DNA of 64,000 bases, taken from Lachnospiraceae bacterium (lineage in GTDB: Bacteria; Bacillota_A; Clostridia; Lachnospirales; Lachnospiraceae). The notes under the pieces were generated by a model that searched no databases, was not told the DNA's origin, and worked only from the letters and a program-made list of their open reading frames with translations. Shown piece by piece: positions 7,448-59,961 of this stretch. Location of the stretch: contig JAFRMI010000003.1 of assembly GCA_017430765.1 (NCBI GenBank), forward strand, positions 10,643-74,642, written 5' to 3'. The position numbers and the translations under genes are program-made. Position 1 is the first letter of the stretch, and every line of letters begins with the position of its first letter.

Positions 7448-8371
7448 TTGTCGGGGTATATTATTTTGAGAAAAAAGAAAAACACTGGGAGCACATCGCT
7501 CCGCGCGCCTCTTCGCCGCTGGGGATGGCTGTTTCTGGGGCCGGTCGTCGCGGCGTTTGCCATCGGGTTTGTGTGGCCTTTTGCGCAGGGCATCTACCTG
7601 TCTTTTTGTAAGTTCCGTCTGATTTCTGACGCGAAGCCCATTGGTTTCGGGAATTATATCGCGGCTCTCAAGGACCAGACATTTATTCACGCATTCTGGT
7701 ACACGGCACTTTTTGCGATCGTCAGCCTTGTGCTCATCAATATATTTGCATTTGCCGTCGCATATGTCCTGACACAGGGGATAAAGGGGAATAATCTTTT
7801 CAGAACGGTATTCTTCATGCCAAACCTCATCGGCGGCATTGTCCTCGGTTATATCTGGTCCATGATCTTCGACGGCGTCCTGTCGCACTTCAATACATCG
7901 ATTCTCCTGAACGCGAAGTACGGTTTCTGGGGTCTCATCATTTTGATGTGCTGGCAGCAGGTTGGATATATGATGATCATCTATATCGCAGGCCTTCAGG
8001 CCGTCCCGGAGGATCTGATCGAAGCGGCCAAGATCGACGGGGCTACACGCTCACAGACGCTCTTTAAAGTGACCATTCCCAATGTCATGCCGTCGATCAC
8101 GATCTGCACATTCCTGTCTCTGACCAATGGATTCAAGCTGTTTGACCAGAACCTGGCCCTTACAGCCGGGCAGCCGTTTACCATTCTTCCGGACGGCTCG
8201 ACCGTCAAGCAGACAGAAATGCTGGCCCTTAACATCTTTAATACATTCTATGGTCAGGGAACAACTTCGCAGGGCGTCGCACAGGCAAAGGCGGTTCTGT
8301 TCTTTATCCTTGTAGCTGCCCTGGGTCTCCTGCAGCTGGCATATACCAGAAAGAGGGAGGTGCAGCAGTAA
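7448..8371 (+). CDS. malF: Sugar ABC transporter permease, MalF type
   Basis: 307-residue inner-membrane permease with six predicted helices. The EAA loop that contacts the ATPase reads EAAKIDGATRSQTLFKVTIP at about residues 197-216. No ATG start exists: the frame opens with TTG at 7448 (AAAGGA 5 bases upstream) and another TTG at 7466, so the start is uncertain by six codons. It ends one base into the next permease gene (TAATG), showing translational coupling. Confidence 0.85.
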   Translation: MSGYIILRKKKNTGSTSLRAPLRRWGWLFLGPVVAAFAIGFVWPFAQGIYLSFCKFRLISDAKPIGFGNYIAALKDQTFIHAFWYTALFAIVSLVLINIFAFAVAYVLTQGIKGNNLFRTVFFMPNLIGGIVLGYIWSMIFDGVLSHFNTSILLNAKYGFWGLIILMCWQQVGYMMIIYIAGLQAVPEDLIEAAKIDGATRSQTLFKVTIPNVMPSITICTFLSLTNGFKLFDQNLALTAGQPFTILPDGSTVKQTEMLALNIFNTFYGQGTTSQGVAQAKAVLFFILVAALGLLQLAYTRKREVQQ

Positions 8372-9231
8372 TGAAACAACAGCAGACATTTGCTGCGGAG
8401 CAGCGCCGTAAGAATATTCTGACCGCTGTGTTCAGCATCATATGCGTTATATACGTACTTCCGGTGTTCTTTGTTGTGATTAACTCATTTAAACAGAACA
8501 CCTATGTCAAGACCGAGACGTTTGCGCTGCCCAATGCTGTGAACGGAGCGGGCTTCAGCAACTTTATAAAGGGTATGACCTTCGGCAACTATCCATTCTG
8601 GGACAGTGTGAAGTACAGTGTAATTATTACGATCCTCTCCACCGCCCTGATTCTTCTCTTTACGTCCATGGCAGCCTGGTACATTGCCCGTGTGAATTCC
8701 CTGTTCTGCCAGATCGTATATTATCTCTGCGTGTTCTCGATGGTTGTCCCGTTCCAGATGGTCATGTTTACGCTTTCCAAGACAGCGGACAAGCTTCATC
8801 TCAATACGCCCTGGACGATACCGATTGTATATCTGGGGTTTGGTGCGGGCCTGGCGATCTTCATGTTCGTCGGTTTTGTGAAATCCATCCCGCTTGAGAT
8901 CGAAGAAGCGGCCTCGATCGACGGCTGCGGCCCTCTGCGGACATATTTTGAGGTGGTATTTCCGATGCTTGTTCCGACACTGATCTCAGTAGGCATTCTC
9001 GAGATTATGTGGGTGTGGAACGACTACCTGCTGCCGTATCTGGTTCTCGATATCAATGTATACCGGACGATTCCCATCCATATTCAGTACCTGAAGGGAA
9101 GCTACGGTACGGTTGATCTCGGAGCAACCATGGCACTGATTCTTCTCAGCATCATACCGGTCGTCATCTTCTATCTGAGCTGCCAGAAATACATCATCAA
9201 GGGTGTTGCGGCCGGCGCGGTGAAGGGATAA
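8371..9231 (+). CDS. malG: Sugar ABC transporter permease, MalG type
   Basis: 286-residue partner permease with six predicted helices. Its EAA loop is EEAASIDGCGPLRTYFEVVF at about residues 173-192. It starts inside the stop codon of the preceding permease, with GGGAGG upstream. No ATP-binding subunit follows; the operon ends at a repeat block. In related bacteria one shared ATPase (MsmK/MsiK type) serves several sugar transporters, so an ATPase elsewhere is inferred. Confidence 0.87.
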   Translation: MKQQQTFAAEQRRKNILTAVFSIICVIYVLPVFFVVINSFKQNTYVKTETFALPNAVNGAGFSNFIKGMTFGNYPFWDSVKYSVIITILSTALILLFTSMAAWYIARVNSLFCQIVYYLCVFSMVVPFQMVMFTLSKTADKLHLNTPWTIPIVYLGFGAGLAIFMFVGFVKSIPLEIEEAASIDGCGPLRTYFEVVFPMLVPTLISVGILEIMWVWNDYLLPYLVLDINVYRTIPIHIQYLKGSYGTVDLGATMALILLSIIPVVIFYLSCQKYIIKGVAAGAVKG

Positions 9232-16954: not shown

Positions 16955-17439
16955 TATCACCCGTCTCCTTTCTCTATGGCCTTTAAAGCGTATGACAATT
17001 ACCGAGTATATTCGGCTGCTCACTATAGTATCATATTTGTAAGTGCGGAACAATTTTTCCGGCAGACATTGATTTTTTTTATTTTTTGATGATCTTTCTG
17101 CAAGATTATTATAAAAACGGAAATATCCACAAAAGCGGCATTCCGAATTCAGTCACTATTCCGATATTGCATGCGGAAAGACTATTCGCTATACTGTTCC
17201 GCATAAGACAGATGTCCGGATACTTCACAACTTCCAGGGAAGGATTTCCGCCGGTGCGGTACGTCCCTCCGATCCGTTCATCGCAGACCCTTCTGTCTTT
17301 CCGGCATAACGTCTCCGTGTGCCGTATCACCCGGTTTTATTTCGAATAATGAATCTTAAAGTGGATTTGACGCCTGTGATCTGATTCGCGGGATGGCATT
17401 TTCACTCATTATTATATCCTTTTTTTGGGAGGGGGAGAG
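16955..17439. other. Long gap between bioY and the Tad cluster
   Basis: 485 bases. AT-rich around 17030-17110. It must hold promoters for both divergent units, but I could not identify convincing -35/-10 pairs or operators, and the short open frames in it lack start signals. Confidence 0.5.
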
Positions 17440-18627
17440 ATGGACGGGAATCGGTACAGGATACTGCAGGCAAAGCTCATGGAAGAGCTGGATCAGCGCT
17501 CCGACGCGAACGACGCCGTGATCCGGGAGATCATCGATACGCTGGTACTAAGCGATGACGGAGAGCCGCGGCTGACACTTGGCGAGCGTGTGCGGATCAG
17601 CCGGGAACTGTTTGCTTCTGTCCGCAGACTCGATATACTGCAGGATCTGATTGACGATAAGAGTGTTACCGAGATCATGGTCAATGGACCAAACTGCATC
17701 TTTATTGAGAGAGACGGGCACATCGAGCGATGGAACCGCACCTTTCAGTCAGATGAAAAACTGATGGATCTTGTCCAGACCGTAGCGGGGGCGTGCAACC
17801 GGGTGATCAACGAGCAGCATCCGATCGTCGATGCGCGGCTCGCCGACGGCAGCCGGGTGAACGCGGTGATCTCCCCCGTCGCGCTGGACGGGCCGTATCT
17901 GACCATCCGGCAGTTCCCCGAGGAGGCAATTACGATGGAAAAGCTCGTCGGATATGGGAGCCTGACGGAGGAGGCAGCTGCATTTTTGGAGAAGATGGTG
18001 CAGTGCGGGTATTCGATCGTGATCGGCGGCGGCACGTCGGCGGGAAAGACGACATTCCTCAACGCGCTTTCCAATTATATCCCCGGGACAGAACGGATTG
18101 TGACGATCGAGGACAACGCGGAACTGCAGATCCAGGGAATCGGGAACCTCGTGCGGCTCGAGGCGAAGGAGGCGAACCACGAGGATATGAGACCGGTCAC
18201 CATCCGGGATCTCATTAAGTCGGCACTGCGCATGCGCCCCGACCGGATCATCGTCGGGGAAGTGAGGGGCGGGGAAGCTGTCGATATGCTGCAGGCATTT
18301 AATACGGGCCATGACGGGTCGCTGTGCACCATTCACGCGAATTCCTGCGAGGACATGCTCTCCCGGCTCGAGACAATGGTCCTGATGGCGTTTCCCCTGC
18401 CCCTTCCGGCGATCCGGAGGCAGATCGCATCAGGCGTGGATCTCCTGGTACATCTGGGGCGCCTCCGGGACCGGTCGCGGCATGTACTGGAGATTGCGGA
18501 GGTGGACGGAATGCGGGACGACAGGGTGGAGACGCACAGCCTGTTCCGATGGAATGAAGCGGGCGGGGCTCTTGAAAAAACGGGAGATCTGAAGAAAAGA
18601 TGGAAACTGGAGATGCGGGATGCGTGA
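17440..18627 (+). CDS. cpaF: CpaF/TadA-type secretion ATPase
   Basis: 395-residue hexameric ATPase of type IV filament systems, Tad branch. The N-terminal domain contains DDKSVTEIMVNGPNCIFIER-type sequence; Walker A GGGTSAGKTTF is at about residue 195 and the Walker B/Asp region DRIIVGEVRGGEA at about 267, followed by NTGHDGSLCTIHANS with the His box. A TTG-started frame opens at 17425, but the ATG at 17440 is placed well after GGGAGGGGGAGA. It leads a five-gene operon and overlaps the next gene by 8 bases. Confidence 0.93.
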   Translation: MDGNRYRILQAKLMEELDQRSDANDAVIREIIDTLVLSDDGEPRLTLGERVRISRELFASVRRLDILQDLIDDKSVTEIMVNGPNCIFIERDGHIERWNRTFQSDEKLMDLVQTVAGACNRVINEQHPIVDARLADGSRVNAVISPVALDGPYLTIRQFPEEAITMEKLVGYGSLTEEAAAFLEKMVQCGYSIVIGGGTSAGKTTFLNALSNYIPGTERIVTIEDNAELQIQGIGNLVRLEAKEANHEDMRPVTIRDLIKSALRMRPDRIIVGEVRGGEAVDMLQAFNTGHDGSLCTIHANSCEDMLSRLETMVLMAFPLPLPAIRRQIASGVDLLVHLGRLRDRSRHVLEIAEVDGMRDDRVETHSLFRWNEAGGALEKTGDLKKRWKLEMRDA

Positions 18628-19375
18628 TGCGGTGAAGACGGATTACCGGGTGTATCGTTTTAAATTGAAAGAGCTGCTTTTGTACTGTGCCCTTTATGCG
18701 GCGGCCTCCTGCGCGGTCGGGTGGCTTTTCTTCGGACGGCCCGCAGCCGGTGCGGTTTTTGGGGCGGGTATGCCGCTGTACATAAGGGAGGTCAGGAAGA
18801 GCCTCGCTGCGCGGAGAAGGAAAAAGCTCACGGCGGAATTCCGGGATGCGCTGAACCTCTTCGCCGTTTCCCTCAAAGCCGGGTATTCTGTGGAAAGAGC
18901 TCTTCCCCTGACGGCCGCGGAGCTCACCTCCATCTACGGAAAAGAGGCCATGATCGTCAGGGAGTTCCGCTATATGGCGGGGCAGCTTTCCTTTCAGGTG
19001 CCTGCGGAACAGCTTCTGCAGAACCTGGCCCTCCGTTCCGGCGCTGAGGAGATCCGGAACTTTGCGGCTGTATTTGCCACGGCGAAGCGGAGCGGCGGAA
19101 ATCTTCCGAAGATTGTCAGCCACGCTGCGGAGACCATCAGCGGGAGAATCGAGGTGGAGAAGGAGATCGAGGCGACGCTCTCGGCGAAGAAGATGGAACA
19201 CAGGATTATGTCTGTGATGCCGTGCGGGATCATCCTGTATATGCGTGCCGGCTCGCCGGGATTTCTCGAAGTGATGTACACGACGGGCCTGGGAGTCGTG
19301 ATCATGGCAGCGGCGCTTGTGCTCTATGCGCTGGCAGTCTATTGGGGTATGCAGATTGTGAAAATTGAAGTGTAA
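18620..19375 (+). CDS. tadB: TadB-like type II secretion system F protein
   Basis: 251-residue inner-membrane platform protein of the Tad system. Two N-terminal helices near residues 12-50, a T2SSF cytosolic domain (FRDALNLFAVSLKAGYSVERAL at about 74-95) and two C-terminal helices. Overlaps cpaF by 8 bases, implying coupling. Forms the membrane platform together with the following TadC-like protein. Confidence 0.88.
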   Translation: MRDAVKTDYRVYRFKLKELLLYCALYAAASCAVGWLFFGRPAAGAVFGAGMPLYIREVRKSLAARRRKKLTAEFRDALNLFAVSLKAGYSVERALPLTAAELTSIYGKEAMIVREFRYMAGQLSFQVPAEQLLQNLALRSGAEEIRNFAAVFATAKRSGGNLPKIVSHAAETISGRIEVEKEIEATLSAKKMEHRIMSVMPCGIILYMRAGSPGFLEVMYTTGLGVVIMAAALVLYALAVYWGMQIVKIEV

Positions 19376-19414
19376 GAACGCCGGCTGCAGCCGGTATGTC
19401 CGCCGGGGGGTGAA

Positions 19415-20764
19415 GTGTTGCTGAAATACACTGTGTATATCGCTGTTGTTTTGATATATGCCGTCTTGTTCCTTGTGTCAGGAGGGCTGTTCCGGAAAAC
19501 CGCGGAATTTCTTCTTAAGAAGATCGAAGCGCTTCGCGCCGTGGCGGACGCGCGGGCTTTGTCGAGGGCCCTTATGATCTTTCTTGGGGCTGTATTTCTC
19601 TCCGCGGCCATGACAGCCCGGGGGGATCTGGAGGATACCGCCAGGGACGGGTACCTTTTGCGGGAGGCGTACGGGGGTGCGGACGAGGAGAAGGACGTCG
19701 TTCTTGAGACGGAAAAGTCCAGCCAGGAGATCACTGTCCTGATCGAAGCCAGAAAACTGAGTTCCGGGGAGATTCGCGGACACCTGGAAGCAGCGGGAGA
19801 CGGGCTGGGAAAAATGTTATTCAAAGACGGGCTCCGCCCGGATCACGTAGATGCGGATCTGTGTCTGCCGGATACGGTGCAGGGGCATCCTGTCCGCGTC
19901 TCATGGATGACAGATCTTCCGGAAGTCCTTGATTTTGAGGGACACAATCTTCTTATGCCGGGGAGCCCGGAGGAAGCAGGCGGGGGAATTCCTGTCACCT
20001 TGACAGCAGAGATCGTCTGTGAGGATGAGATCGCGGAGAAGGAATTTCCGGTCACCGTGTATCCGAAGAAGATGACGGATGCGGAGCGGATGGCCTATCT
20101 GGCGGAACAGGCGGTTCGGGAGGCGAATGACGCCTCGAAAGAGAAAGTCGTCCTCCCGGGCAGGATCGGGGGAAAAACGGTCGCCTGGAAGACGCCGGAC
20201 GACGGAAGCGGCGTGCTTCTTCTCTTTCTGGGGATCCTGACGGCAGTTTTCTATGTCTATGCGGAAGAGGCCCGGAAGGACCGGGCGGAGCAGGAGCGGA
20301 TCGAGCAGATGAAGAAGGATTATCCGGGGATCATCAGTAAACTGGTGCTGCTTTTGTCGGCGGGCATGAGCCTCCGGTCCGCGTTTGGCCGGATCGGTAG
20401 GGACTATCGCACAGGCCTCCTTGAGGGAGGACCGAAACGCGCGGGGTATGAGGAGATCGTTGCGCTGACGAAAGAGATGGAACGCGGAATCCCGGAGGCG
20501 GAAGCATATGCCAATTTGGGGAAAAGGGTCCATTGTCCGGTGTATAAGACGTTTTCGACCCTTCTTGTCCAGAACCTGATGCGCGGCGGCAGTGACATGG
20601 CGAGGCTCCTTATGCGGGAGGCGGATGAGGCGTTTGATGAGAGAAAGAAGAGGGCCAGGGTGCTCGGGGAAGAGGCGGGGACAAAACTCCTTCTGCCGAT
20701 GATGCTGATGCTGTGTGTCGTGATGGCTGTCCTGATCGTTCCCGCCTTCTTCGCCTTTGCCTGA
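19415..20764 (+). CDS. tadC: TadC-like platform protein with an extracytoplasmic insert
   Basis: 449 residues, start GTG at 19415 after GGGGGG. The C-terminal 180 residues are a T2SSF platform domain (YPGIISKLVLLLSAGMSLRSAF near 313-334) with a last helix pair. Unlike plain TadC, the N-terminus has two helices (about 1-25 and 52-68), then about 195 residues predicted outside, then a helix at about 264-284. The outside part holds an Ig-like stretch (PVRVSWMTDLPEVLDFEGH and VTLTAEIVCEDE...FPVTV, about 155-220), similar to atypical bacterial Ig folds. I recall Lachnospiraceae homologues with the same layout. The insert may guide the filament or contact cell wall. Confidence 0.82.
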   Translation: MLLKYTVYIAVVLIYAVLFLVSGGLFRKTAEFLLKKIEALRAVADARALSRALMIFLGAVFLSAAMTARGDLEDTARDGYLLREAYGGADEEKDVVLETEKSSQEITVLIEARKLSSGEIRGHLEAAGDGLGKMLFKDGLRPDHVDADLCLPDTVQGHPVRVSWMTDLPEVLDFEGHNLLMPGSPEEAGGGIPVTLTAEIVCEDEIAEKEFPVTVYPKKMTDAERMAYLAEQAVREANDASKEKVVLPGRIGGKTVAWKTPDDGSGVLLLFLGILTAVFYVYAEEARKDRAEQERIEQMKKDYPGIISKLVLLLSAGMSLRSAFGRIGRDYRTGLLEGGPKRAGYEEIVALTKEMERGIPEAEAYANLGKRVHCPVYKTFSTLLVQNLMRGGSDMARLLMREADEAFDERKKRARVLGEEAGTKLLLPMMLMLCVVMAVLIVPAFFAFA

Positions 20765-20830
20765 ACCGCGTGAACAATACAGGAAGTGAAGCGGACAGCG
20801 GATGTCCGCTTTACAGGGGAGGTGTTTTCC

Positions 20831-21403
20831 GTGATCAATATGCAGACAGGTTTCGGCCCATATGTAACAGTCACCTATGCGGCAGCAGCCGCACTGTGCG
20901 ATGTGAAAACGGGGAAGATTGGGAATCCCCTCATCATACTGGGGTGGACCGCAGGACTTTGCCTTCAGACCGCCTGGCAGCTGCCTTCGGCGCGGGAACC
21001 TGCGGAAGTGCTGCTCCGCGGTTCGGTGCAATGGCTGTCCGGGGCATTGATCCCGCTCCTTCCGGGCATTCTTCTGCACAGGCTTGGCATGATCGGAGCC
21101 GGGGACGGAAAACTGCTCTCCGCTCTCGGGAGCTGCGTCGGACCTGAGGGATCCGTCCGGATTATGCTTGCCTCCGTATTTTGCGGGGCACTGGTGTCGC
21201 TGCCGCTTTTGGTTTCCGTGACCGGGGTCCGGGAGAGACGGCTGTATTTTGCCTCTTATGTGCGGGAGGTTCTGGAGACGGGACGCATTCCTTCTTACCG
21301 GAAAGCTTCCGGGAGCCGGCTTCGTCCCGAAGAATTTCACTTTGCTGTCGCGGTATTTATGGCGGTTCTTCTGTACATGGGCGGGTATTTACCGCAGCTT
21401 TGA
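20831..21403 (+). CDS. cpaA: Type IV prepilin peptidase (TadV/CpaA)
   Basis: About 190-residue A24 aspartic peptidase of the inner membrane. The two catalytic Asp motifs are visible: CDVKTGKIGN near residue 23 and GMIGAGDGKLL (GxGDxK) near 98. GTG at 20831 follows GGGGAGG by 8 bases and is preferred; the frame is open to 20786. It would process Flp-type prepilins, none of which is encoded in this cluster. Confidence 0.88.
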   Translation: MINMQTGFGPYVTVTYAAAAALCDVKTGKIGNPLIILGWTAGLCLQTAWQLPSAREPAEVLLRGSVQWLSGALIPLLPGILLHRLGMIGAGDGKLLSALGSCVGPEGSVRIMLASVFCGALVSLPLLVSVTGVRERRLYFASYVREVLETGRIPSYRKASGSRLRPEEFHFAVAVFMAVLLYMGGYLPQL

Positions 21404-21474
21404 TCCGATCCCGGACAGGCAGAAACGGTTCGGAGAAAAGGACCGCCGGAACAGGAGGAGAAAGGAAGAAAAGA

Positions 21475-22476
21475 ATGAGAAAACAAGTGGTGGCCCTGAT
21501 GGACTCGGAAGAGTCCTATACGATCCGGTTTATGGATTATGTGAATCGAAAGAAGAGCGCACCCTTCGAGGTCCGTGCATTTACAAGAAAGGAACAGCTC
21601 AGGCAATTCCTGGAGGATCACTATGTGGAACTCCTTTTAATAGCGGAGTGCGATGCCGATGAGGAGACGGAGAGTTTCCCGGTCGGAATGACGGTGTACC
21701 TTACGACGGATGTGTCCCGCGGATGTGCCGGCCGGCCCGCGGTCAATAAATACCGGGCGGTGTCGGAAGTGATTCGGGAGATCGTGCAGATTTACAGCAC
21801 GAAAGAGCGGTCTTCACCGGGAGCTGTCATTAAGCCCCGCACGAATGTGATCGGCGTCTTCTCCCCGGTCGGAAGGTGCGGGAAAACATCTTTTGCCCTG
21901 GCACTGTGCATGCTTCTGGCAAGGAAGAAGGCGGCTCTTTATATCAATATGGAGAGCTGTCCCGGCCTGCCCGAAGAGCTGCCGTCCTCCGGCGGACATG
22001 ATTTGAGTGAGCTGATCTACTACATCAGACAGAATGATCCGAATCTGAAAGGAAAACTTCTGACTGCCATAGCGGAAAACCGGCAGATCAGCCTGATTCC
22101 CCCCTGCGCGCAGGCGGACGAGCTGTTCAGTGTGACGGGCCGGGAGTGGAGGGAGCTTCTGCAGGTGATCCGCACGGAAACGCCTTATGAAGCCGTGGTT
22201 CTTGATCTCGGCGAGCTGCCGCACCTGCTGCCGGAACTTCTTTCAGAATGTGATGAGATTTATATACCGGCGTCCGGCGGCGCCATATCGAAGACGAAGA
22301 TGGAAACCTTCGCGAGGAGGGCCGGTGCCAGGGCGGAGACCGTTCGCGAAAGAATCCACACAGTCACTCTTATGGAAGACACGGCAGCATTTGAAAGTGA
22401 TAAGTGGTTTCAGAGGCTGACATATGGGGGTATTGGGAAAATGGCGGCGGAATGTATAGAACGGGAAGGCCTGTAA
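21475..22476 (+). CDS. cpaE: CpaE/TadZ-like localisation ATPase
   Basis: 333 residues. N-terminal receiver-like region (about 1-110), then a ParA/MinD-type ATPase with deviant Walker A GVFSPVGRCGKTSFALAL at about 123-140. TadZ proteins place the Tad machine at the cell pole or surface. Start at 21475 follows AAAGGAAG. Last gene of the cluster; it converges on tmk. The C-terminal half is poorly conserved, so ATPase activity is not assured. Confidence 0.8.
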   Translation: MRKQVVALMDSEESYTIRFMDYVNRKKSAPFEVRAFTRKEQLRQFLEDHYVELLLIAECDADEETESFPVGMTVYLTTDVSRGCAGRPAVNKYRAVSEVIREIVQIYSTKERSSPGAVIKPRTNVIGVFSPVGRCGKTSFALALCMLLARKKAALYINMESCPGLPEELPSSGGHDLSELIYYIRQNDPNLKGKLLTAIAENRQISLIPPCAQADELFSVTGREWRELLQVIRTETPYEAVVLDLGELPHLLPELLSECDEIYIPASGGAISKTKMETFARRAGARAETVRERIHTVTLMEDTAAFESDKWFQRLTYGGIGKMAAECIEREGL

Positions 22477-33458: not shown

Positions 33459-33767
33459 AGGAAGAATATAACAATGCGAAAACGGATTAGCAAGGTTTAA
33501 TTGTGATTCATTATGGACAACCGCGCGGACTGCTTATTATTCCGGTGCCGATGGCAGCAGGGAAAAAACGGTACGGGACAGACCGTCCGGTGCGGCACGC
33601 AGCCGGTTTCCGGGGCGCAGTTCAGGGGAACAGGATCGGGAATAGTATGTCCATTTCGGTTTTTTTGTGATACACTCTTTAGTGGCTGCATTTTATGAAG
33701 GAAAGAGATGCGGGCGCAGCGCGTCCGCGATCCGCTTCGCTTTGTACGGCAGAAAGGAAGAAGAGTT

Positions 33768-36284
33768 ATGGCACCAGCACCCATGGGCCGGGACCGGAAA
33801 GTGACCGGCAAGGCTAAAGATATCTACAAGAGGGGCGACGGGCTCGGAACGGGACCGGTCGGCTCATCCGGCGGTTACAGCGGAAAGACAGGGGGCTCGT
33901 CCTCCGGGGGCGGCGGTAAGAGAAGCGGCGGAAAGATGCCGCTCATCCTGATCCTTCTGCTCGTTCTCTTCGGAGGCGGCGGAGGACTGTCCGGACTCCT
34001 CGGGGGATCCGGGAGTTCGGGAACCGGTTCGACGAACGGAAACGGGACCGGCTTTTCCCAGGCGACGCCTGCCGTAACGGCGACGCCGAAACCGGGCAAC
34101 GCCGGCAGCAATGCGTCCGGAAGCCAGAGCGCATCGTCTTCCCAGATGGACTCCTTTATCAACCAGTTCTTCGCGGGCGATCCGTCGACCTTCACGTCGA
34201 ACGGAGGAACGACGCAGTCCGCCGATGAGACCACAGCAGATGTTTCCGTGGCATCCGGGTCCCGCGAGAAGTACACAAAACTTCTCGGAAACGGAAAAGA
34301 CACCGTCACCATCATGGTTTATATGTGCGGGACGGATCTTGAGTCGAGAAGCGGCATGGCGACTGCGGATCTCATGGAGATGACGAAGGCGGACCTTACG
34401 AACGTCAACATCATCGTATACACCGGCGGCTGCAGGAGATGGCAGAACAACGTCATCAGCAGCTCCGTCAACCAGATCTATCAGGTGAAGAACGGGGGAC
34501 TCTCCCTTCTTATCAAGGATGCGGGCAGCGGCGTCATGACCGATCCGTCCACGCTTGCGTCCTTCATTAAGTGGTGTTCGCAGAATTAATCCGCGAACCG
34601 CAATGAGCTGATCTTCTGGGACCACGGCGGAGGCTCCGTGAGCGGCTACGGCTACGACGAGAAGAACGCCCGCGCCGGCGGCATGACGCTCGAGGGCATC
34701 AACAGAGCGCTTTCGAAGGCCGGCGTGCGCTTTGACTTCGTCGGATTTGACGCCTGCCTCATGGCGACGGCCGAGAATGCGCTGATGCTGAACAGCCACG
34801 CCGACTATATGATCGCATCCGAGGAGACCGAGCCCGGGATCGGCTGGTATTACACGGACTGGCTGACGCAGTTCTCGAAAAATACATCCATGCCGACCAC
34901 TGAGATCGGCAAGAGGATCGCGGATGATTTCGTGAAGGCCTGCAACGCCAGGTGCCGCGGCCAGCAGACGACGCTTTCCGTCATCGATCTGGCGGAATTC
35001 GCCAACACGGTTCCGGATAAGCTGACCGCATTTGCGAAGTCCATCAGCGCGCTCATCGAGAAGAAGCAGTATTCACAGGTGGCGTCGGCCAGGAACCAGA
35101 CACGCGAGTTTGCGCGGAGCACCCGGATCGACCAGGTGGATCTCATCGATCTCGCCAGGAATATGGGGACGCAGGAGGGCAGAGATCTCGCCGCGGTCCT
35201 TGAGGGAGCTGTCAAATACAACAACTATAACAACATCTCGAAGGCGGGCGGCGTCTCCATCTATTTCCCGTACCAGAGTATCTCTAAGGTCGATTCGGCG
35301 GTCAGCACCATGAATGCGATCGGCATGGATTCGAGCTACGGGGAGGCGATCAAGGAGTTCGCGTCCCTCCAGACCTACGGACAGGTCGCAGGCGGCGGCA
35401 CGAACAATCCGTACAGCTCCCTGCTCGGAGATTACGGAATCTTCGGAACCGGAAGCGGATCCGGATCCTCGTCCGGCTCCTCCTCGTATTCAGCGGACTA
35501 CGGTGCGGACGCGCTCAGCCAGCTTCTCGGGGCGTTCCTCGGAGGAAATTACAGTTCGATCTCCGGACTGTCCTCCTCGAATACCGGATATCTGAGCGGA
35601 AGGGCGCTCGGAGTGGAAGAGACCGCGGAGTATATCAGCGCGAATCATTTCGAGGGCGATCAGCTTCTGTGGCAGGAGGACGGCGGAGAGTATAAGATCT
35701 CCATCGCGGACGACCAGTGGCAGTATGTACACGGCGTCGACCTCAATATGTTCTACGACGACGGGGAAGGCTATATCGACTTCGGTCTTGACAATGTGTA
35801 CAGCTTCGATGAAGCCGGCAGATTTGTTGCGAATACGGACAAGGTGTGGCTGTCATTTAACGATCAGATCGTCGCTTACTACCACGAGAACACGGAGCAG
35901 GATGGCGAGAAGTACGCGATCACGGGCTATGTCCCGGCGCTTCTCAACGGCGACCGTGTGAACCTCATCGTAGTATTTGACAACGAGGATCCGTACGGAC
36001 GGCTGGAAGGCGCGCGGGCGGTCTATAAGGACGGCGAGACGGAGACGGTCGCGAAAACCATGACGGAGATCAAGAACGGGGATACGATCGATTTCCTCTG
36101 CGACTATTATACCTATGACGGGGAATATCAGGATTCTTACAAGTTCGGGGATCCGCTCACGGTGACGGACGATCTCACGATCGGAAATTCGGAGTTCTCT
36201 GATCAGGGCAGCGTCATGATTACGTACCGCTTCCGCGATCTCTATAACCGTGAGTACTGGACAGCACCGATTCTGGTCAAGTAG
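33768..36284 (+). pseudogene. Clostripain-like (C11) protease interrupted by in-frame stop
   Basis: One continuous frame of about 838 codons broken by TAA at 34587-34589, between WCSQN and SANRNELIFWDHGGG. The N-terminal part has a helix (MPLILILLLVLF) and a Gly/Ser-rich linker; the C11 domain starts near TVTIMVYMCGTDLESRSG. The catalytic His (HGGG) and Cys (FDACLMA) both lie after the stop. The only later start, GTG at 34638, falls behind the His, so reinitiation would not restore it. Long Ser/Gly linker and a beta-rich tail follow. AGGAAG precedes the ATG. Decay is recent: the rest of the frame is intact. Confidence 0.8.
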
Positions 36285-36310: not shown

Positions 36311-36343
36311 AAAAGGAGACAGGACAGCCTGCCTCCTTTTTTT
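36311..36343 (+). terminator. Terminator after the clostripain-like gene
   Basis: AAAAGGAG-A-CAGG / CCTG-C-CTCCTTTT with one internal mismatch, followed by a T run. Confidence 0.75.
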
Positions 36344-36361
36344 GACGATATAGAAAATGCT

Positions 36362-37417
36362 TTATCTGAGCTGCATCGCGAGCCGGTCCGGATTGGGGGA
36401 GTAGGAGAGAGCTGTCTCCTTCGTGATCCTTCCGGAGCGGAAGAGGTTCAGGAGAGACGTATTCATCGTGACCGCCTGCGGGCCGGAAGTCTGAATGACA
36501 CCGTCGATCTGGTGGAGCTTGTTCTCCCGGATCATGTTGCGGATCGCTGTGTTGACCATCATAATCTCGAAGGCCGCCGCGACGGAGCCGTCGACGGTGG
36601 GGACCAGCTGCTGGGAGACGACCGCCTCGAGCACGCTGGAGAGCTGGACGGCGATCTGGTGCTGCTGCTCCGCCGGGAAGACGTCGATGATGCGGTTGAT
36701 GGTGTTCGACGCACCGATCGTGTGAAGGGTGGAGAACAGGAGATGGCCGGTCTCGGCGGCGGTCATGGCGACAGAGATGGTCTCAAAGTCGCGCATCTCG
36801 CCGAGGAGGATGACGTCCGGGCTCTGCCGGAGAGCCGCGCGGAGGGCAGTCACATAGCTTTCCGTGTCGACGTCGATCTCACGCTGGGAGACAATGCTCT
36901 TCTGATGCCGATGGAGATATTCAATGGGGTCTTCAAGCGTGATGATGTGGGAGTTCCGCGTCCGGTTGATGTGATCGATGACGCAGGAGAGCGTCGTCGA
37001 TTTTCCGGATCCGGCGGAGCCGGTCACAAGAACCATTCCTTTTGCCAGATCCCCGAAGCGGATAATGGCGTCCGGGATGCCGAGAGCTGCCGGATCGGGC
37101 ATGGCGAAGGAGATGATCCGGATCACCGCGGAAAGCGAGCCGCGCTGCTTAAAGGCGCTGACACGGAAACGCGAGAGACCGGGAATCGCGAAGGAGAAGT
37201 CATCGTCGCCTTTAGAGGCGACTTTTGCGCTGTCGCGTCCTCCCGCGAGCGCGTAGACTTCTTTTATGAGCCGCTCCGTGTCGGCAGGCAGGAGTCTCTC
37301 CGACGACTCCATGTAGATGGAACCGTGCTTTCGGAACGAAAGACCGAGCCCCGCGACGATAAATACGTCGGAGGCGCCTTCGGATACGGCCTGCTGCAGG
37401 ATATCGGTGATTGTCAT
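36362..37417 (-). CDS. pilT: PilT-type retraction ATPase
   Basis: 351-residue hexameric ATPase of type IV pili. Walker A TGSAGSGKSTTL, Asp box HIITLEDPIEYLH, Walker B DVILLGEMRD, His box AAETGHLLFSTLHT, and the PilT-specific AIRNMIRENK (consensus AIRNLIRE). Three ATGs in a row (37429, 37423, 37417); GGAG sits six bases before the last, which I prefer. Last gene of an operon with a PilC-like platform protein and four small membrane-anchored proteins; no PilB extension ATPase is present. Confidence 0.9.
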   Translation of the reverse strand: MTITDILQQAVSEGASDVFIVAGLGLSFRKHGSIYMESSERLLPADTERLIKEVYALAGGRDSAKVASKGDDDFSFAIPGLSRFRVSAFKQRGSLSAVIRIISFAMPDPAALGIPDAIIRFGDLAKGMVLVTGSAGSGKSTTLSCVIDHINRTRNSHIITLEDPIEYLHRHQKSIVSQREIDVDTESYVTALRAALRQSPDVILLGEMRDFETISVAMTAAETGHLLFSTLHTIGASNTINRIIDVFPAEQQHQIAVQLSSVLEAVVSQQLVPTVDGSVAAAFEIMMVNTAIRNMIRENKLHQIDGVIQTSGPQAVTMNTSLLNLFRSGRITKETALSYSPNPDRLAMQLR

Positions 37418-37493
37418 ATGCATCTCCATTCCGCCGTGTTTTTTGACCGCGGCACATAGTATATCTCAGTAAGGGACAGCTCCTCTGTTCAGC

Positions 37494-37913
37494 TTACCAG
37501 CCCAGCCGTCCGTCCGTCATGAGGTTCAGCGTATTCTCCACTTCCCTGCCCACGTTGGACATCACCTGCCACCGGGTGATGATATAGCGGGGCGCTTCCG
37601 CTGTTCCCGCAAGGCGCGCCTCGACATCCAGCTCGTCGCTGTCGTCGATGGAGACGGTGAATGCAAGTGTCTCCAGTGCGCCGTCCGGATTCATCACGGC
37701 CTCGTCGGTATATTCGTGGATGGTCAGCTCCGCCATATCCGAAGCCGCCTGATAGGCCAGATTCTTCTCAGCGCGGATCTGCGCGGCCGTCAGATCGTTC
37801 CTGGCCTCGGCGATGGAAATCGCCGCGAAGGTCAGAAGACACAGGATCAGAAAGACCACGAGAAGAAGAGAAAGCCCGAAGGTATGGGGGCGGATCTCAT
37901 TTTTTTGTTTCAC
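37494..37913 (-). CDS. Small membrane-anchored pilus-operon protein
   Basis: 139 residues: 13-residue basic head, one helix (about 14-36, GLSLLLVVFLILCLLTFAA), then an extracytoplasmic tail. The layout matches pseudopilins, but no prepilin cleavage motif with Glu at +5 is visible. In the region between pilC and pilT, so likely a structural or assembly part. Family not recognised. Confidence 0.7.
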   Translation of the reverse strand: MKQKNEIRPHTFGLSLLLVVFLILCLLTFAAISIAEARNDLTAAQIRAEKNLAYQAASDMAELTIHEYTDEAVMNPDGALETLAFTVSIDDSDELDVEARLAGTAEAPRYIITRWQVMSNVGREVENTLNLMTDGRLGW

Positions 37914-38034
37914 GTCCGAAACCTCACTTTGTAAAAATCGCTTATGTCATGTCTTCCGCGGGTGGATCTTATTTTCCATAACAGGAGAAAAACCACCCGG
38001 CGAAACGGCACCATGTCCGTCTTTTACGCGGATT

Positions 38035-38490
38035 TCAGGGATTCTGTACCGCTGTCAGATAATGCGAGAACGGGATGGATGTGACCGGTTCCCCTTCCGC
38101 ATCGGAATTGGCGTAGTAGGAGACCGTTCCCTCCAGGACGGACTCAAAGTCTATTACGTCAGCACAGATCAGGTGCTCCCCGCCATGCGCGGGGATCCGG
38201 ATGTTCATCCGGACCGTCACGGCCTCCATCTCTGCGTCCGGGTAAAGCGCGGTGATCTTCTCCCGCACTTCCTCCGCGGTGTCGCAGCTGCGGATGACTT
38301 CCACGACGGAGGCGGTCTCACCGGACGCTGTTCCAAGCAGCGTCGCCTCCGCGCTCATGTTGTGGGCCCGCACGAAAACGGAGATGGCGGCGGCAGCGGC
38401 GACCGCAAACAGGGTGATCGCAAGGATCAGTTCCATAAGAAAGAGGAACGAGGAGGAGATTCTGTTTCTCGCGGGTTTTCCTTCGCGCAT
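38035..38490 (-). CDS. Pseudopilin-like protein
   Basis: 151 residues. The N-terminus RISSSFLFLMELILAITLFAVA looks like a degenerate type IV prepilin head: a hydrophobic helix with one Glu, which would be at +5 if cleavage follows SSSF. The rest is an outside domain of about 110 residues. The gene starts 1 base after the preceding one ends, showing tight coupling. Probably a minor pseudopilin. Confidence 0.7.
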   Translation of the reverse strand: MREGKPARNRISSSFLFLMELILAITLFAVAAAAAISVFVRAHNMSAEATLLGTASGETASVVEVIRSCDTAEEVREKITALYPDAEMEAVTVRMNIRIPAHGGEHLICADVIDFESVLEGTVSYYANSDAEGEPVTSIPFSHYLTAVQNP

Positions 38491-38491
38491 A

Positions 38492-38980
38492 TCAGGCCTC
38501 CTTTCCGCTTCTTACGGCGATGAGACCGGAGACGGACGTCCGGTCCTCCCCGGTGCAGGTCAGCCGGATGAGCCCGTCCCCGAGATCCTCCGCGGAGAAG
38601 GCGGCAAGGGGCAGGATCTCCGTCCCGGTTTCCGGCAGCACCTCCGCGTTCCGTCTCATGAAGAGCTCCCGGAGGGAACCGTCATAGAGATAGATGTATG
38701 TGACATAGTCCGCATGATCGGGATCACTGATGGCCAGGACCTCTTCCCCGTTAAAGGTTTCCGTCCCGATGGTTCCTCCCGCGTCGTTTCTCCGGATCTT
38801 CTCCGAAATATACGCGTACGATGTGCGGGCGGAGTAGTTTCGCGCTGCCTCATCGACGCCGTGCTTATAGATTCTGGCCGAGAAAAGGATTACCGTGATC
38901 GCTGCCAGAGCGAAGATGCAGAACAGAATGACCGGGAACAGGATTTCAATATGATGCTTTGTGGTTTTATGATTCGGCAT
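38492..38980 (-). CDS. DUF4860-like pilus-operon protein
   Basis: 162 residues with one N-terminal helix (EILFPVILFCIFALAAITVILF) and an outside domain containing ARTSYAYISEKIRRND and VTYIYLYDGSLRELF. I place it with DUF4860 from memory, without certainty. ATG at 38980 is preferred since GGAAG lies five bases upstream; another in-frame ATG is at 38992. Overlaps the end of the preceding gene. Confidence 0.65.
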   Translation of the reverse strand: MPNHKTTKHHIEILFPVILFCIFALAAITVILFSARIYKHGVDEAARNYSARTSYAYISEKIRRNDAGGTIGTETFNGEEVLAISDPDHADYVTYIYLYDGSLRELFMRRNAEVLPETGTEILPLAAFSAEDLGDGLIRLTCTGEDRTSVSGLIAVRSGKEA

Positions 38981-39335
38981 CGTCTTCCGCATCCTCCTCC
39001 CCGTCCGTGAGATCGCGCTCGATCACGGTAAACTCCGGCCGCAGGTTGTCCCCTCTTATGTGGTAGTCGACATAAAACAGGTCCTCACTGTAGCGCAGGC
39101 CGTAATGCTGCGTGAGATAGTAGACATCCTCCGGATAGTGGCCCTCCTGTGCATAGCACTCCGTGATATCGCGCGTGAGGGCGCTTACAAGAGACTCCTT
39201 CTGCCGTTTCCGGGTTCCGTCTCCGACACTTCCCACCGCCGTGAGAAACAGGACGATGAGACAGGCGAAAAGAGCGAGGGGAAGGAGAAGCCCCGCTTTT
39301 CTGTTCTTCTTTTTATTACTTCGAAATGCTGCCAA
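38967..39335 (-). CDS. Small membrane-anchored pilus-operon protein
   Basis: 122 residues: basic head (MAAFRSNKKKNRK), one helix (about 15-35) and a tail with YAQEGHYPEDVYYLTQHYGL, similar in pattern to minor pilins whose post-helix segment reads YPxDxxxL. Acidic C-terminus. Overlaps the next gene by 14 bases. Confidence 0.7.
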   Translation of the reverse strand: MAAFRSNKKKNRKAGLLLPLALFACLIVLFLTAVGSVGDGTRKRQKESLVSALTRDITECYAQEGHYPEDVYYLTQHYGLRYSEDLFYVDYHIRGDNLRPEFTVIERDLTDGEEDAEDDAES

Positions 39336-39422
39336 GGAAACGCTTCCTCCGTGTTCTGCAACGGCCCGGCTAAAAGAAGTGCTGAACCGTTCGGGTTAGT
39401 TTAAATTGAGCGGCATCCGGAA

Positions 39423-40490
39423 TCACATGGAACTCATGAGCCCGAGAAGCGGGAACATGACGGAGAGCATGATGACACCGATGGCGGCGGACATCAGGAT
39501 CACGAGAAGCGGCTCCATCGTCGCGAGCCGGTTATTGATCTTCGTATCAATTTCATCCTGATACATATCCGCGATCTCCCCCATCACGCGGTCCAGCGTG
39601 CCGGTTTTCTGGCCGATGGAGAGCATCCGGCTGTAGATGCCGGAGAAAATGCCGCGTTCGGAGAGAGCCGCCGCGAACCCTTTTCCCTCCATCATCTCAC
39701 TCCTGCACGCTTCAAGCTCTTTCGTGAAATCCGGGTCTTCGCTCAGCCCGGAAGCCATCTCCATACCCTCATCGGGAGTGAGACCGGCAGCGAGCGCCAT
39801 GGACATGGCATCCGCAAAGCGGCAGGCGGAGACTGTGCGGCGGGATTTCCGGGCTGACGGGAACCGCTGCGTGAAATTCCGCATCGCAGATTGTCCCGCA
39901 TCCGTCCGGAAGAGGATGAAGATGAGAATGAGGACCACAAGGATGAGCAGGATAAAGATCACCGCGTAGGCGCGGATCGCGTTGCCGATCCCCAAAAGTA
40001 CAGCCGGAAGGCCGGTCATCTCGGCGCCGAGGCTCACAAACACCTCGTTGAAGACCGGCATGACCTTTACGAGGAGCAGAATGATCACCAGCAGCATCAT
40101 CCCGGTCAGGATCATCGGGTAGAGAACCGCGTTCCGTGTGCTTTTGCGTATGGAATCCTCCCTGTCATAGTGCTTTTCCAGGGCATCCATGACGGAATCC
40201 AGGTTGCCGGTGCGCTCCCCGATCTCCGTCATCTGCACAAAATACGGCGGAAAAGCGCCGCTTGCGGCCAGCGCGGGAGACAGATACCCTCCGGTCATCA
40301 TTTCGTCGAGAATTGTCCCGAGAATCTGCTGATCCCGGGAGGACTCCGCATCCTCTTTCATGATGGAGATACCCTCCATTGCGGAGATGCCGGCGTGCAG
40401 CACAAGCGACATCTGTTCCGCGAATGCGGAGAGCTCCGCGTTGGTGAGGGTGCCGTTTCCTTTGTTTTGAGCCTGCTCTGTCGTGGACAT
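39423..40490 (-). CDS. pilC: PilC/GspF-type platform protein
   Basis: 355 residues with two T2SSF domains: FAEQMSLVLHAGISAMEGISIM at about 22-43 and CRFADAMSMALAAGLTPDEGM at about 221-241, each followed by hydrophobic helices. Motif ERTGNLDSVM and QKTGTLDRVM mark both repeats. First gene of the pilus-like operon, which then reads four small anchored proteins and PilT. Confidence 0.9.
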   Translation of the reverse strand: MSTTEQAQNKGNGTLTNAELSAFAEQMSLVLHAGISAMEGISIMKEDAESSRDQQILGTILDEMMTGGYLSPALAASGAFPPYFVQMTEIGERTGNLDSVMDALEKHYDREDSIRKSTRNAVLYPMILTGMMLLVIILLLVKVMPVFNEVFVSLGAEMTGLPAVLLGIGNAIRAYAVIFILLILVVLILIFILFRTDAGQSAMRNFTQRFPSARKSRRTVSACRFADAMSMALAAGLTPDEGMEMASGLSEDPDFTKELEACRSEMMEGKGFAAALSERGIFSGIYSRMLSIGQKTGTLDRVMGEIADMYQDEIDTKINNRLATMEPLLVILMSAAIGVIMLSVMFPLLGLMSSM

Positions 40491-40601: not shown

Positions 40602-41477
40602 TTAATATATACATACGGGGGTATAGCGGGACGATCTGTTCAGATATGACCGGATCCGGTCCGGCTTATTGCATGCCCCAAGTGTCGGGTCGACAACTGA
40701 CCAGGTGCCGGCAGTCACATCGAACGCACCCCCTACGGTTCCGGACTCATCGGTTTGAACGCTGACCCACGCGTGATACATCTCGCCAAGATACCCGGTC
40801 TCCATGCGGGCCGGGATACCGACGCTCCGCAGCATGGCTGTCATGAGTGCCGCGTAATCCGGCGCGACGCCCGTCCCTGCACTGAGAGTGCCGTTCGGGG
40901 ACGGCACATAATCCACCGGGGCGTTCGCCGCAAGCTCCGTGTCGTATGACACATGGCTTATGACATAATCGAAGACAGCCTGCGTCATGGCGAGCTGTGA
41001 GGTCATCCCCTCCGTGACTTCCCGCGCGGTCTCTGTGACCGCATCCCCGTCCTTATAGAAGATGACGCAGTTTCCTCTTAAAAATGGAGCCGCTGCATCC
41101 GCAGCCTCCACATCCAGTCTCCGGGAGAGCAGATAGGCGAAGCGGCTGCTTCCGGGGACCTGTTCGAGAAGGTCGATCCGGTAACTGCCGTTTCCGCCTG
41201 TGAGCGGAACCGTGTAGGTGGAGCCGTCATCTTCGGCAGATGCATTCCCCAGAGGATAGGACGCGCGGCTGCCGTCCGGGGAGAGGACTTCCACGCGGAA
41301 GCGGTCCGCGTCCTTCGGGATGTTAACGGTAATAAAACCGTCCGCGGCCGTCTCACAGGCAACCGCTGCGGGAAGGGAATCCGTGACAGCGGCACGCACC
41401 GGAAGACAAAACGCGGTGAACAGGAGGAGGACCGACAGGATCAGCTGTGTATTTTTTTCTCTGAATCGCTTTTTCAT
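40602..41477 (-). CDS. Secreted transglutaminase-fold protein, catalytic Cys missing
   Basis: 291 residues with signal peptide (about 1-29, QLILSVLLLFTAFCLPVRAA). The C-terminal half is a transglutaminase-like fold: TQAVFDYVISHVSYD, AGTGVAPDYAALMTAMLRSVGIPAR, YHAWVSV and WSVVDPTL. In active members the second segment reads GVCxxYA; here the codon is GCG (Ala), so the nucleophile is absent while His and Asp remain. Start at 41477 has a weak site; the frame is open upstream. Upstream of pilC on the same strand, perhaps a cell-wall-binding part. Confidence 0.8.
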   Translation of the reverse strand: MKKRFREKNTQLILSVLLLFTAFCLPVRAAVTDSLPAAVACETAADGFITVNIPKDADRFRVEVLSPDGSRASYPLGNASAEDDGSTYTVPLTGGNGSYRIDLLEQVPGSSRFAYLLSRRLDVEAADAAAPFLRGNCVIFYKDGDAVTETAREVTEGMTSQLAMTQAVFDYVISHVSYDTELAANAPVDYVPSPNGTLSAGTGVAPDYAALMTAMLRSVGIPARMETGYLGEMYHAWVSVQTDESGTVGGAFDVTAGTWSVVDPTLGACNKPDRIRSYLNRSSRYTPVCIY

Positions 41478-41692
41478 ACTGCAAAGTATATCATATTCGA
41501 GAAAGTTTTCGAATAGAAATGCATTTTTGTTGCTCTTTTTTTCAGAATCAGTTATGATACAAGATAGTAGTAACATGGGATTGGTTTTTGCTTTTTTAAA
41601 CGTTTTATGCGTGACTGCGGCATAGGGGGCTGCCATAAGCGGCAGCGTGCGCGCGTGTCCCGTCATTAAAATTTCCTCTTTAAGGGGTATGT

Positions 41693-43351
41693 ATGGCAGA
41701 AGTAAGAAAAACAATAATGGTTAAGACCTTCCCGCGCCTTGTGATCAGCGATGGGAAAACGACGGTGACGGAGAACGATATCCGGTCGGATATGGTCATC
41801 CGTCTCTTTGCCTATCTGATCTGCAGCCACAAGAAGGTGTGCGGAGCAGAGGAACTGGCGGCTGCTCTGTGGCCGGGGGACGAGAGTGTCAATCCGGCAG
41901 GGGCTCTTAAGAACCTCGCCTACCGCCTCCGGCAGATCATGAAGAAATATTTCCCGCAGACCGATTTCATCCGCACGGGCCGCGGCGGATACTCATGGAA
42001 TCCGGACCTGCCGATCTGTCTTGACGCCGATACACTTGTGTCAGAGATCCGCAAAGCTGAGAAGACGGAGGAGCTGGACGGGAAGATCCGGCATTACAGT
42101 GCCGCATTTTCCGTATATAAGGGGCGGTTCCTGGAGAGCATCGCGGAGGACGCGTGGGTTGTCCCGAAGCTCGCATCCTATGAGAATCTGTTCCGCGAGA
42201 CGGCGAGCAATTACACGGAGCTTCTCGGGATGACCGGGGACTATATCGAGATGGAGGACGTTGCCCGCACGGCGATCGGGATTGATCCGCTCGAGGAGAA
42301 GTTTCATATGGCGCTCATCCGGGCTTTGGTGGCGGAGGAACGTCACAGTGACGCCGAGGAACATTACCGGGTGGCGGCAAAACTGCTGTATGACAACCTG
42401 GGGATCGGCCCTTCGGAGGAGATGAAGCGGCTCTTTGACGCGGTGATGGAGCAGGAACACCGCCAGGAGACGGACCTTACGGTGATCCAGGAGGAACTGC
42501 ATGAGGCGGAGACGCCGCACGGCGCATTTTACTGCGAGTACGGCGTGTTCAAGAAGATCTATGAACTGGAGGCCCGGCGCACGGCCCGTATGGGCATGAC
42601 GATCTTCCTGTCCCTCATCACGATGCACGCGGCGGGAGAGGCGAATGAGATGTCCGGGAAGGGGCGCGACGTACTGGACCGCGGGATGGCGCAGATGCTG
42701 GAGGTCATGATTGACTCTCTGCGTACCGGCGACGTCTGCACGAGATACAGCGCCAACCAGTACCTGATCATGCTGCCGGCCTGCCCGTATGAGAACGCCC
42801 GGGCAGTGACGGAGAGAATCCTGAAGAATTACGAGCATGTGAAGAGGCGGGCGAAAGTCGAAATCGGATACACCCTCAAGGAAATGGAGCCGGCCATGGA
42901 GGGCATGCACGGCAATCCGGTCTGCATCCCGTCTACCCTGCGCGTTTTGATCGACGTGCTGGACGCGGAAAACGGGCACTTTTCGGGCAGAATCACCGGC
43001 ATCGCCGTCGAGCGGGATCAAACCTTCCGCGGGACGCAGGAGTTTCTGCGCGTGACAGATACGCTTCTTAATAAAATTGGAAGGCCGCAGCCGGGAAGGC
43101 TTCCGCGCCACTTTACGGGCGGCGAGAAATATGTTTCCTACAAAGCAAAACCGGAACTATTCCGGCCGGCCGAGGAGATTATGGAAAAGAAAGGCAATGC
43201 CGCGACATACGATCTCGAGTTCCGGTCCAGATCCTACAGTACATGGCAGGGATTCCTCTATGAGGAAGGCGGAAAGGAACCGGCATATTTTTCCAGCGAA
43301 CTGGAACTGCTGAATCTGATGCTCGGCAGCCAGGAGAGAGGGGAGGTGTAA
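41693..43351 (+). CDS. BTAD transcriptional regulator with degenerate GGDEF-like domain
   Basis: 552 residues. N-terminal winged helix of OmpR type (about 20-110: EELAAALWPGDESVNPAGALKNLAYRLRQ), then a bacterial transcriptional activation domain (about 115-265, with DVARTAIGIDPLEEKFHMAL). From about 280 a GGDEF-like fold follows, but the signature is replaced by RYSANQYLIML, so cyclase activity is unlikely. The last 45 residues carry STWQGFLYEEGG...FSSELELLNLML, shared with the next small gene. Start preceded by AAGGGG. Likely controls the surface protein downstream. Confidence 0.82.
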   Translation: MAEVRKTIMVKTFPRLVISDGKTTVTENDIRSDMVIRLFAYLICSHKKVCGAEELAAALWPGDESVNPAGALKNLAYRLRQIMKKYFPQTDFIRTGRGGYSWNPDLPICLDADTLVSEIRKAEKTEELDGKIRHYSAAFSVYKGRFLESIAEDAWVVPKLASYENLFRETASNYTELLGMTGDYIEMEDVARTAIGIDPLEEKFHMALIRALVAEERHSDAEEHYRVAAKLLYDNLGIGPSEEMKRLFDAVMEQEHRQETDLTVIQEELHEAETPHGAFYCEYGVFKKIYELEARRTARMGMTIFLSLITMHAAGEANEMSGKGRDVLDRGMAQMLEVMIDSLRTGDVCTRYSANQYLIMLPACPYENARAVTERILKNYEHVKRRAKVEIGYTLKEMEPAMEGMHGNPVCIPSTLRVLIDVLDAENGHFSGRITGIAVERDQTFRGTQEFLRVTDTLLNKIGRPQPGRLPRHFTGGEKYVSYKAKPELFRPAEEIMEKKGNAATYDLEFRSRSYSTWQGFLYEEGGKEPAYFSSELELLNLMLGSQERGEV

Positions 43352-59553: not shown

Positions 59554-59922
59554 TTACCTCACCGTTTCCTGCCTCACGAAGTGAAGCTCCACACCGAGCA
59601 GACTGGATTTTATGCCGTCTCCTTCCTCCGTAAAGGTCATTTTTGCACCGCCTTTCAGTTTCAGACCGTCTTTGGTCTCTTCCCAGGTACATTCGGTCAC
59701 TTCATCGCCCGAAGTCATCTGTGCTGTGCCGTCGGCATTGAGGATCAGCAGGATCTCGTCCTCGAATTCACCCGATTCGTCCATGAGGGACAGAGACGCG
59801 GCTTTCCAGGTGCCGAGGTATTTGCTGTCGGACAGATCTTTCTGGCTGCTGCCGCACCCTGAAAGAATGACACAGGAAAGAAACATGGTCATACAGAGAA
59901 TTACTGAAATTGCTTTCTTCAT
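59554..59922 (-). CDS. Small lipoprotein
   Basis: 122 residues. Lipobox LSGC with C23; the mature part looks like a small beta-barrel of the lipocalin-like kind (YLGTWKAASLSLMDESGEF, LILNADGTAQM, CTWEETKDGLKL). Directly before the CobW-type gene. Function unknown. Confidence 0.75.
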   Translation of the reverse strand: MKKAISVILCMTMFLSCVILSGCGSSQKDLSDSKYLGTWKAASLSLMDESGEFEDEILLILNADGTAQMTSGDEVTECTWEETKDGLKLKGGAKMTFTEEGDGIKSSLLGVELHFVRQETVR

Positions 59923-59961
59923 GTGATTGCTCCTCCTAAGCTGTTGATAGATAGCAGCACT

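Follow-up and report, generated by a model that had tools for sequence, protein, structure and literature searches.

A PilT–PilC cassette with pilin-like subunits, often found without PilB in gut Clostridia

What does a PilT ATPase do in an operon that contains no PilB? The question is raised by a stretch of 64,000 nucleotides (referred to here as the window) from a Lachnospiraceae bacterium (GenBank assembly GCA_017430765.1, contig JAFRMI010000003.1, positions 10,643 to 74,642 of the forward strand), in which an initial annotation had described six tightly packed genes coding for a PilC-type platform protein, four small proteins, and a PilT, with neither PilB nor a recognizable major pilin. 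This operon is real, conserved, and located on the minus strand, but it is larger than the six genes claimed, as pilC is immediately preceded, on that strand, by a seventh, which codes for a transglutaminase-core protein (TG). The genome-level searches described below covered 72 relatives, and the window's own species was represented by the 64-kb window. We class the cassette as a novel version within the type IV filament superfamily, and we give an even chance to the interpretation that it encodes a compact membrane machine, powered by PilT and descended from the part of a type IV pilus that comprises the platform and the minor pilins. As far as the draft genomes and the sensitivity of the searches allow, the cassette does not need PilB and, in the larger of its two groups (clade A, defined below), does not need an A24 prepilin peptidase.

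The genes are arranged between ~41.5 and 36.3 kb in the order TG, pilC, orf2, DUF4860, orf4, orf5, and pilT, with successive intergenic gaps of 111, 87, −26, 1, 121, and 64 bp, which makes the description “tightly packed” only roughly right. The ATPase (pilT, 36362..37429, minus strand) was correctly called a clear PilT, as it scores 400 bits against TIGR01420 (cut-off 319), while the same protein falls far below the cut-offs of the models for GspE (126.6 versus 630 bits), ComGA (132 versus 300), and TadA (TIGR03819, 44.5 versus 373), and is thus not an assembly ATPase of the GspE type used in the type II secretion system. The Walker, Asp-box, His-box, and AIRNMIRE-type motifs are kept across an alignment of 40 operon PilTs. 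The platform gene (pilC, 39423..40490, minus strand) encodes a PilC/GspF-type protein matching T2SSF at 4.6e-47, with 203.7 bits against the GspF model, below its cut-off of 424. The operon therefore holds the retraction ATPase and platform of a type IVa pilus and, together with the small proteins, of which orf2 and DUF4860 are modeled with pilin-like folds, the core of the type IV filament superfamily.

The absence of PilB holds in the window and, at the genome level, in about half of the relatives. When a hidden Markov model of the operon PilT was run against 496 six-frame segments of the 64-kb window, no PilB was found, and the only matches were PilT itself and, at 20.8 bits, a TadA (17425–18627), the sole other ATPase of the family. 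The latter belongs to a Tad-like locus (17425–22476) with a pair of T2SSF proteins and, below the cut-off of its model, a TadZ-like match. The 72 relatives are DUF4860-bearing genomes, 10 reached via individual loci, 22 from the order of Christensenella hongkongensis, and 40 from the order of a Lachnospiraceae genome. A PilB-like ATPase, defined as a near full-length PF00437 match above 380 bits, was present in 3, 10, and 23 of these, respectively, and with fragments in one further genome (G058) the total comes to 37 of 72; in the remaining 35 it was not found. Because of these 35 genomes, the proposal that PilB and the pilin simply reside elsewhere fails as a general answer, although the 37 others do have a PilB. 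Of the 35, 19 show no strong match of the family besides the operon PilT (“PilT-only”, meaning that other family matches score below 35 bits or that none reaches E 1e-15, depending on the batch), and 16 have another strong one, TadA-like in most. Operon PilTs form one clade in the tree, apart from the PilTs that adjoin PilB. Where an operon has no linked pilT, one is found elsewhere in 16 of 17 such genomes; in four of the eight unlinked-PilT loci listed (L078, L081, L083, and L085), this PilT follows a gene of ~357–384 codons with a shared start and precedes a ComM-like gene, the latter named by eye.

The cassette is not confined to the window. Scanning contigs with a DUF4860 alignment gave 59 loci, by their record titles mainly from Lachnospiraceae, with some from Oscillospiraceae, Christensenella, and others, in which the small proteins follow the same order wherever the contig permits. 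DUF4860 occurs in 23 of 151 sampled genomes from the order of C. hongkongensis, in 41 of 146 from the order of the Lachnospiraceae genome, and in 14 of 398 sampled across the phylum of the latter (13 over the cut-off). A wider set comprises 123 loci, some of which share a genome or stem from closely related ones. With C denoting pilC, 2 orf2, J DUF4860, I orf4, K orf5, and T pilT, the prevalent orders are TG-C-2-J-I-K-T (70 loci) and TG-C-2-J-I-K (21), followed by T-C-2-J-I-K (9), T-C-2-J-I-K-TG (6), C-2-J-I-K-T and C-2-J-I-K (4 each), C-2-J-I-K-TG-T (3), and six other orders, several of them cut by contig ends.

Each of the four small proteins does have, as initially described, a basic head and one hydrophobic helix. 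Structure prediction, which the annotation had put forward as a check, returned pilin-like folds for two of them: the orf2 product (38967..39335, minus strand; TTG start, no cleavage motif) is predicted to group with pilins, whereas the DUF4860 protein (38492..38992, minus strand), which belongs to that named Pfam family at 9.4e-27, is modeled as a long N-terminal helix followed by a GspJ-like beta domain and groups with GspJ-type pseudopilins. The orf4 product (38035..38490, minus strand) appears as a GspI/PilV-like subunit with a Glu in the register of pilin Glu5, kept in all 68 rows of one alignment and in 120 of 123 rows of a wider one. The orf5 product (37494..37913, minus strand; GTG start) has no Glu5 and carries a head Gly invariant in 67 of 67 rows, and is likely GspK/PilX-like, judging from its head pattern and place in the gene order. 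That just one small protein has a plausible Glu is correct in so far as the orf4 Glu is strongly conserved, but the DUF4860 head also holds a conserved acid (Asp in 62 and Glu in 3 of 68 rows).

The heads divide the loci into two groups. The stated lack of a GFTLIE head is true of the window, where the single match to such a pattern lies inside the pilC frame and is not a head, and of the loci resembling it, but not of the 15 related pilT-first loci, in every one of which the orf4 head is of the GFTLIE/GFSLLE type. Such heads define a sister group, B (20 loci), and the remaining 102 loci constitute clade A, to which the window belongs by its degenerate leader sites: a class III prepilin site has Gly at −1 and Glu at +5, and residue −1 of the window's orf4 is Phe. 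Across clade A, this residue is Ser in 32, Gly in 29, Thr in 8, Arg in 7, Asn in 7, Lys in 6, Ala in 6, Pro in 4, and His, Leu, and Phe in one locus each. Some DUF4860 heads of group B (L125, L127, and L136) also look canonical. The split agrees with gene order, as pilT-first loci are group B in 15 of 15 cases and pilT-last loci in 0 of 78. In the PilC tree, 40 clade-A rows fall on one branch (100/99), with group B and type IV pilus rows on the other side, and the PilT tree gives each group a branch of its own (A 100/100, B 100/98). Both trees are midpoint-rooted, group B does not hold together as a single branch in that of PilC, and support is weak at the deepest forks of that of PilT. A single loss of canonical processing, with type IV pili as the outgroup, would fit this pattern. 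One locus was left out of both groups, although its genome (G189) is counted among the 72: L134 is a pilus locus that combines PilB, PilT, and PilC with a DUF4860-like minor pilin (25.1 bits, cut-off 25) bearing a GFTLIE head, possibly a relative of the ancestor of the cassette.

With regard to the prepilin peptidase, 16 of the 35 PilB-less genomes gave no A24 match over the cut-off, versus 3 of the 37 with PilB (G130, G222, and G223), the latter being an indication of the false-negative rate; in the rest of the 72 genomes the peptidase is present. None of the 16 PilB-less genomes with another strong family ATPase lacks A24. Two of the A24-less genomes are nearly closed, namely G064 (2.97 of 3.0 Mb in one contig) and G045 (3.97 of 4.2 Mb). 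Among the 19 PilT-only genomes, the three with A24 (G184, G220, and G241) all have a group-B locus, G241 along with two clade-A loci, while the 16 without A24 have only clade-A loci, one of which has Gly at −1. A24 and canonical heads thus co-occur in 3 of 3 versus 0 of 16 cases (Fisher p 0.001, tested post hoc). The lone A24 genes of G220 and G241 (L173 and L174) have the same surroundings, with an alaS-like gene adjacent and an efp-like gene close by (named by eye). As for pilins, no N_methyl match over the cut-off occurs in 30 of the 35 PilB-less genomes; four of the five that have one (G197, G220, G233, and G241) have it, by position, in the operon's own orf4, and among the first ten genomes such matches occur only in the three with PilB.

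The partner gene, TG (40602..41477, minus strand), encodes a protein with a signal-peptide-like start (by eye) and a transglutaminase core, PF01841 matching at 1.5e-18 on a longer open reading frame (40602–41714). A homolog was seen in 52 of the first 59 loci, five of the seven misses lying near a contig start (L057 and L059 do not), and the wider search added a match in L045 and in L057. In total, TG is linked in 103 of 123 loci, 95 of 102 in clade A and 8 of 20 in group B; of the seven clade-A loci without it, four lie near a contig start (L005, L052, L055, and L056), the others being L108, L059, and L143. Its position varies, as it may precede pilC, stand between orf5 and pilT, or follow orf5, yet the linkage stays. 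All of the other loci (103 of 103) have the Cys of the catalytic triad, which is replaced by Ala in the window and its close relatives P0018 and P0019, so that in the window's lineage TG is probably without enzyme activity.

Taken together, the conservation of the C-2-J-I-K core with PilT, in clade A nearly always with TG, speaks, along with the folds predicted for two of the subunits, for the machine described at the outset, and PilB and clade-A processing look dispensable because genomes without PilB and A24 keep the operon and A24 tracks the group-B loci. In the mechanism that we propose, the four one-helix subunits would keep their heads uncleaved, remain membrane-anchored, and assemble above PilC into a short tip complex resembling GspIJK. 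A PilT hexamer would turn PilC at the expense of ATP, which would move or strain the tip complex with no filament growing, and the complex would act on, or present, the secreted TG-like protein at the cell wall. The packing of a normal pilus uses the free N-terminus and Glu5, so that uncleaved subunits are unlikely to join one; they probably make up a short complex instead, anchored in the membrane and moved by PilT via PilC. Elsewhere, minor pilins together with PilY1 reportedly prime pili and sit at their tip (PMC8833165), and extension is reported to require PilT in one system (PMC9815625). A bolder formulation is offered tentatively, as a possibility with the balance of probability against it: that a widespread branch gave up both filament assembly and prepilin processing, leaving PilT, otherwise a motor for retraction, as the sole motor of a non-filamentous transmembrane device of uncleaved pilin-like subunits that passes force or movement to an envelope partner, the TG-like protein being partner rather than catalyst and, in the window's lineage, probably inactive.

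Several points weigh against a machine of this kind. Gly at −1 combined with Glu at +5 in 29 of 102 clade-A loci means that some of these subunits may be cleaved. The peptidase may have been missed in G064, where three unlinked, scattered GFTLIE-type genes (L177–L179) occur and no PilB or A24 was found, and G089 has an A24 match just below the cut-off (24.0 versus 26.5). The absence of TG from 12 of 20 group-B loci and the loss of its Cys in the window mean that the coupling to TG is not universal. Many genomes are drafts or metagenome-assembled, of unstated completeness, and ATPase scoring took only part of the first-look candidates in many of them, including the PilT-only G220 and G289, and likewise in two genomes of another batch. 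Finally, the contacts between subunits, the direction of the motor, and the lack of a filament are all things that we infer from sequence.

The main rival, which we consider rather unlikely, is an exporter resembling the type II secretion system, in which PilT would have turned into the motor for building a very short endopilus, and this would drive the TG-like protein, or some other cargo, across the cell wall. The subunit set, which is like GspG/H-I-J-K, and the linkage of TG would suit such an exporter, and Tad reportedly provides a precedent of a single motor serving both directions (PMC12019362). Yet clade-A subunits have no standard cleavage site, and processing is normally required for such subunits to assemble. 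TG itself begins with a signal-like stretch, and a loose lipobox-like pattern fits 65 of 103 TGs, so that an exporter is not obviously needed. It is improbable that clade-A subunits are still processed, at a relaxed site, by a Tad or orphan A24 peptidase: the frequent Ser or Gly at −1, the invariant Gly of orf5, and A24 genes that in some genomes lie apart from both Tad and PilB would allow it, but 16 genomes keep the operon with no A24 over the cut-off, and residue −1 is Lys, Arg, Asn, Thr, Pro, His, Leu, or Phe in 35 of 102 clade-A loci. We hold just as improbable an accessory module that supplies a Tad or type IV pilus system of the same cell with minor pilins and PilT, as the Tad-like locus of the window and the 37 PilB-bearing genomes might suggest, since no Tad or type IV pilus motor is seen in the 19 PilT-only genomes and the operon PilTs stand apart from PilB-adjacent ones. 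An ordinary type IV pilus with PilB, PilD, and major pilin elsewhere in the genome is the least probable, as, despite the 37 genomes with PilB and a search of the window's own species that spanned 64 kb, 35 genomes lack PilB, 30 of these lack an N_methyl match over the cut-off, and additional GFTLIE genes occur only in G064. Two further options of the annotation, a PilT that drives assembly and a secretion-like filament, keep some probability; on balance, the evidence rather favors a machine that no longer needs the processing of its subunits.

Directly after pilT lies a terminator-like 13-pair stem with a T run (36311..36340, minus strand), a consensus match from a pattern scan that gave 11 such sites in 6 kb versus 4.6 expected, and promoter-like hexamers upstream of TG (41485..41512, minus strand; 9 of 12 matches) are a weak candidate, with three such sites in the region versus 2.2 expected. 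A divergent regulator with a BTAD domain (41693–43351; a GGDEF match is below its cut-off) adjoins the operon, and downstream of it lies a clostripain-like (Peptidase_C11) gene (33708–36284) with an in-frame stop after codon 293, both halves sharing one frame. The profiles of TG and orf2 have further, very weak matches in the window at 59557–59961 and 8242–9228 (E 0.0007 and 0.0035), respectively.

No published account of a PilT-only cassette or of DUF4860 was found in the literature searched, which comprised no preprints and few subscription journals. One survey took PilB as the ATPase marker (PMC6668835), and a survey of Gram-positive bacteria searched with ATPases such as ComGA (PMC3244431); a cassette with PilT only could thus have been overlooked. 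It occurs in many gut Clostridia with a linked partner gene, TG; DUF4860 gains a likely role, and the cassette offers a natural test of what PilT does alone and of whether pilin-like subunits work uncleaved. If the proposed reading is true, a pilus machine was possibly remade into a non-pilus device.

Among known systems, the cassette resembles the type IVa pilus of monoderms, which we take its hosts to be, in the PilC platform, the TIGR01420-family PilT, the pilin-fold subunits, and the class III head of group-B orf4. It differs from that pilus in the absence of PilB from 35 of 72 genomes, the addition of TG, the non-canonical heads of clade A, and an operon holding no major pilin with a canonical head; nor are the operon genes of the PilM/N/O kinds, at which no search was aimed. 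With the pseudopilus of the type II secretion system (GspGHIJK-F) it shares the GspJ-type fold predicted for DUF4860, a GspF-like platform, and heads that appear GspI-like and GspK-like, although PilT stands in place of GspE. The ComG competence pilus of monoderms is likewise encoded by a small operon, which comprises a platform gene and a number of genes for small pilin-like proteins, whereas here PilT replaces the ComGA-type assembly ATPase and a ComGC-type head is absent. Like the Tad pilus, the cassette combines a single ATPase with a platform, but the ATPase is PilT rather than TadA, and one PilC takes the place of TadB and TadC.

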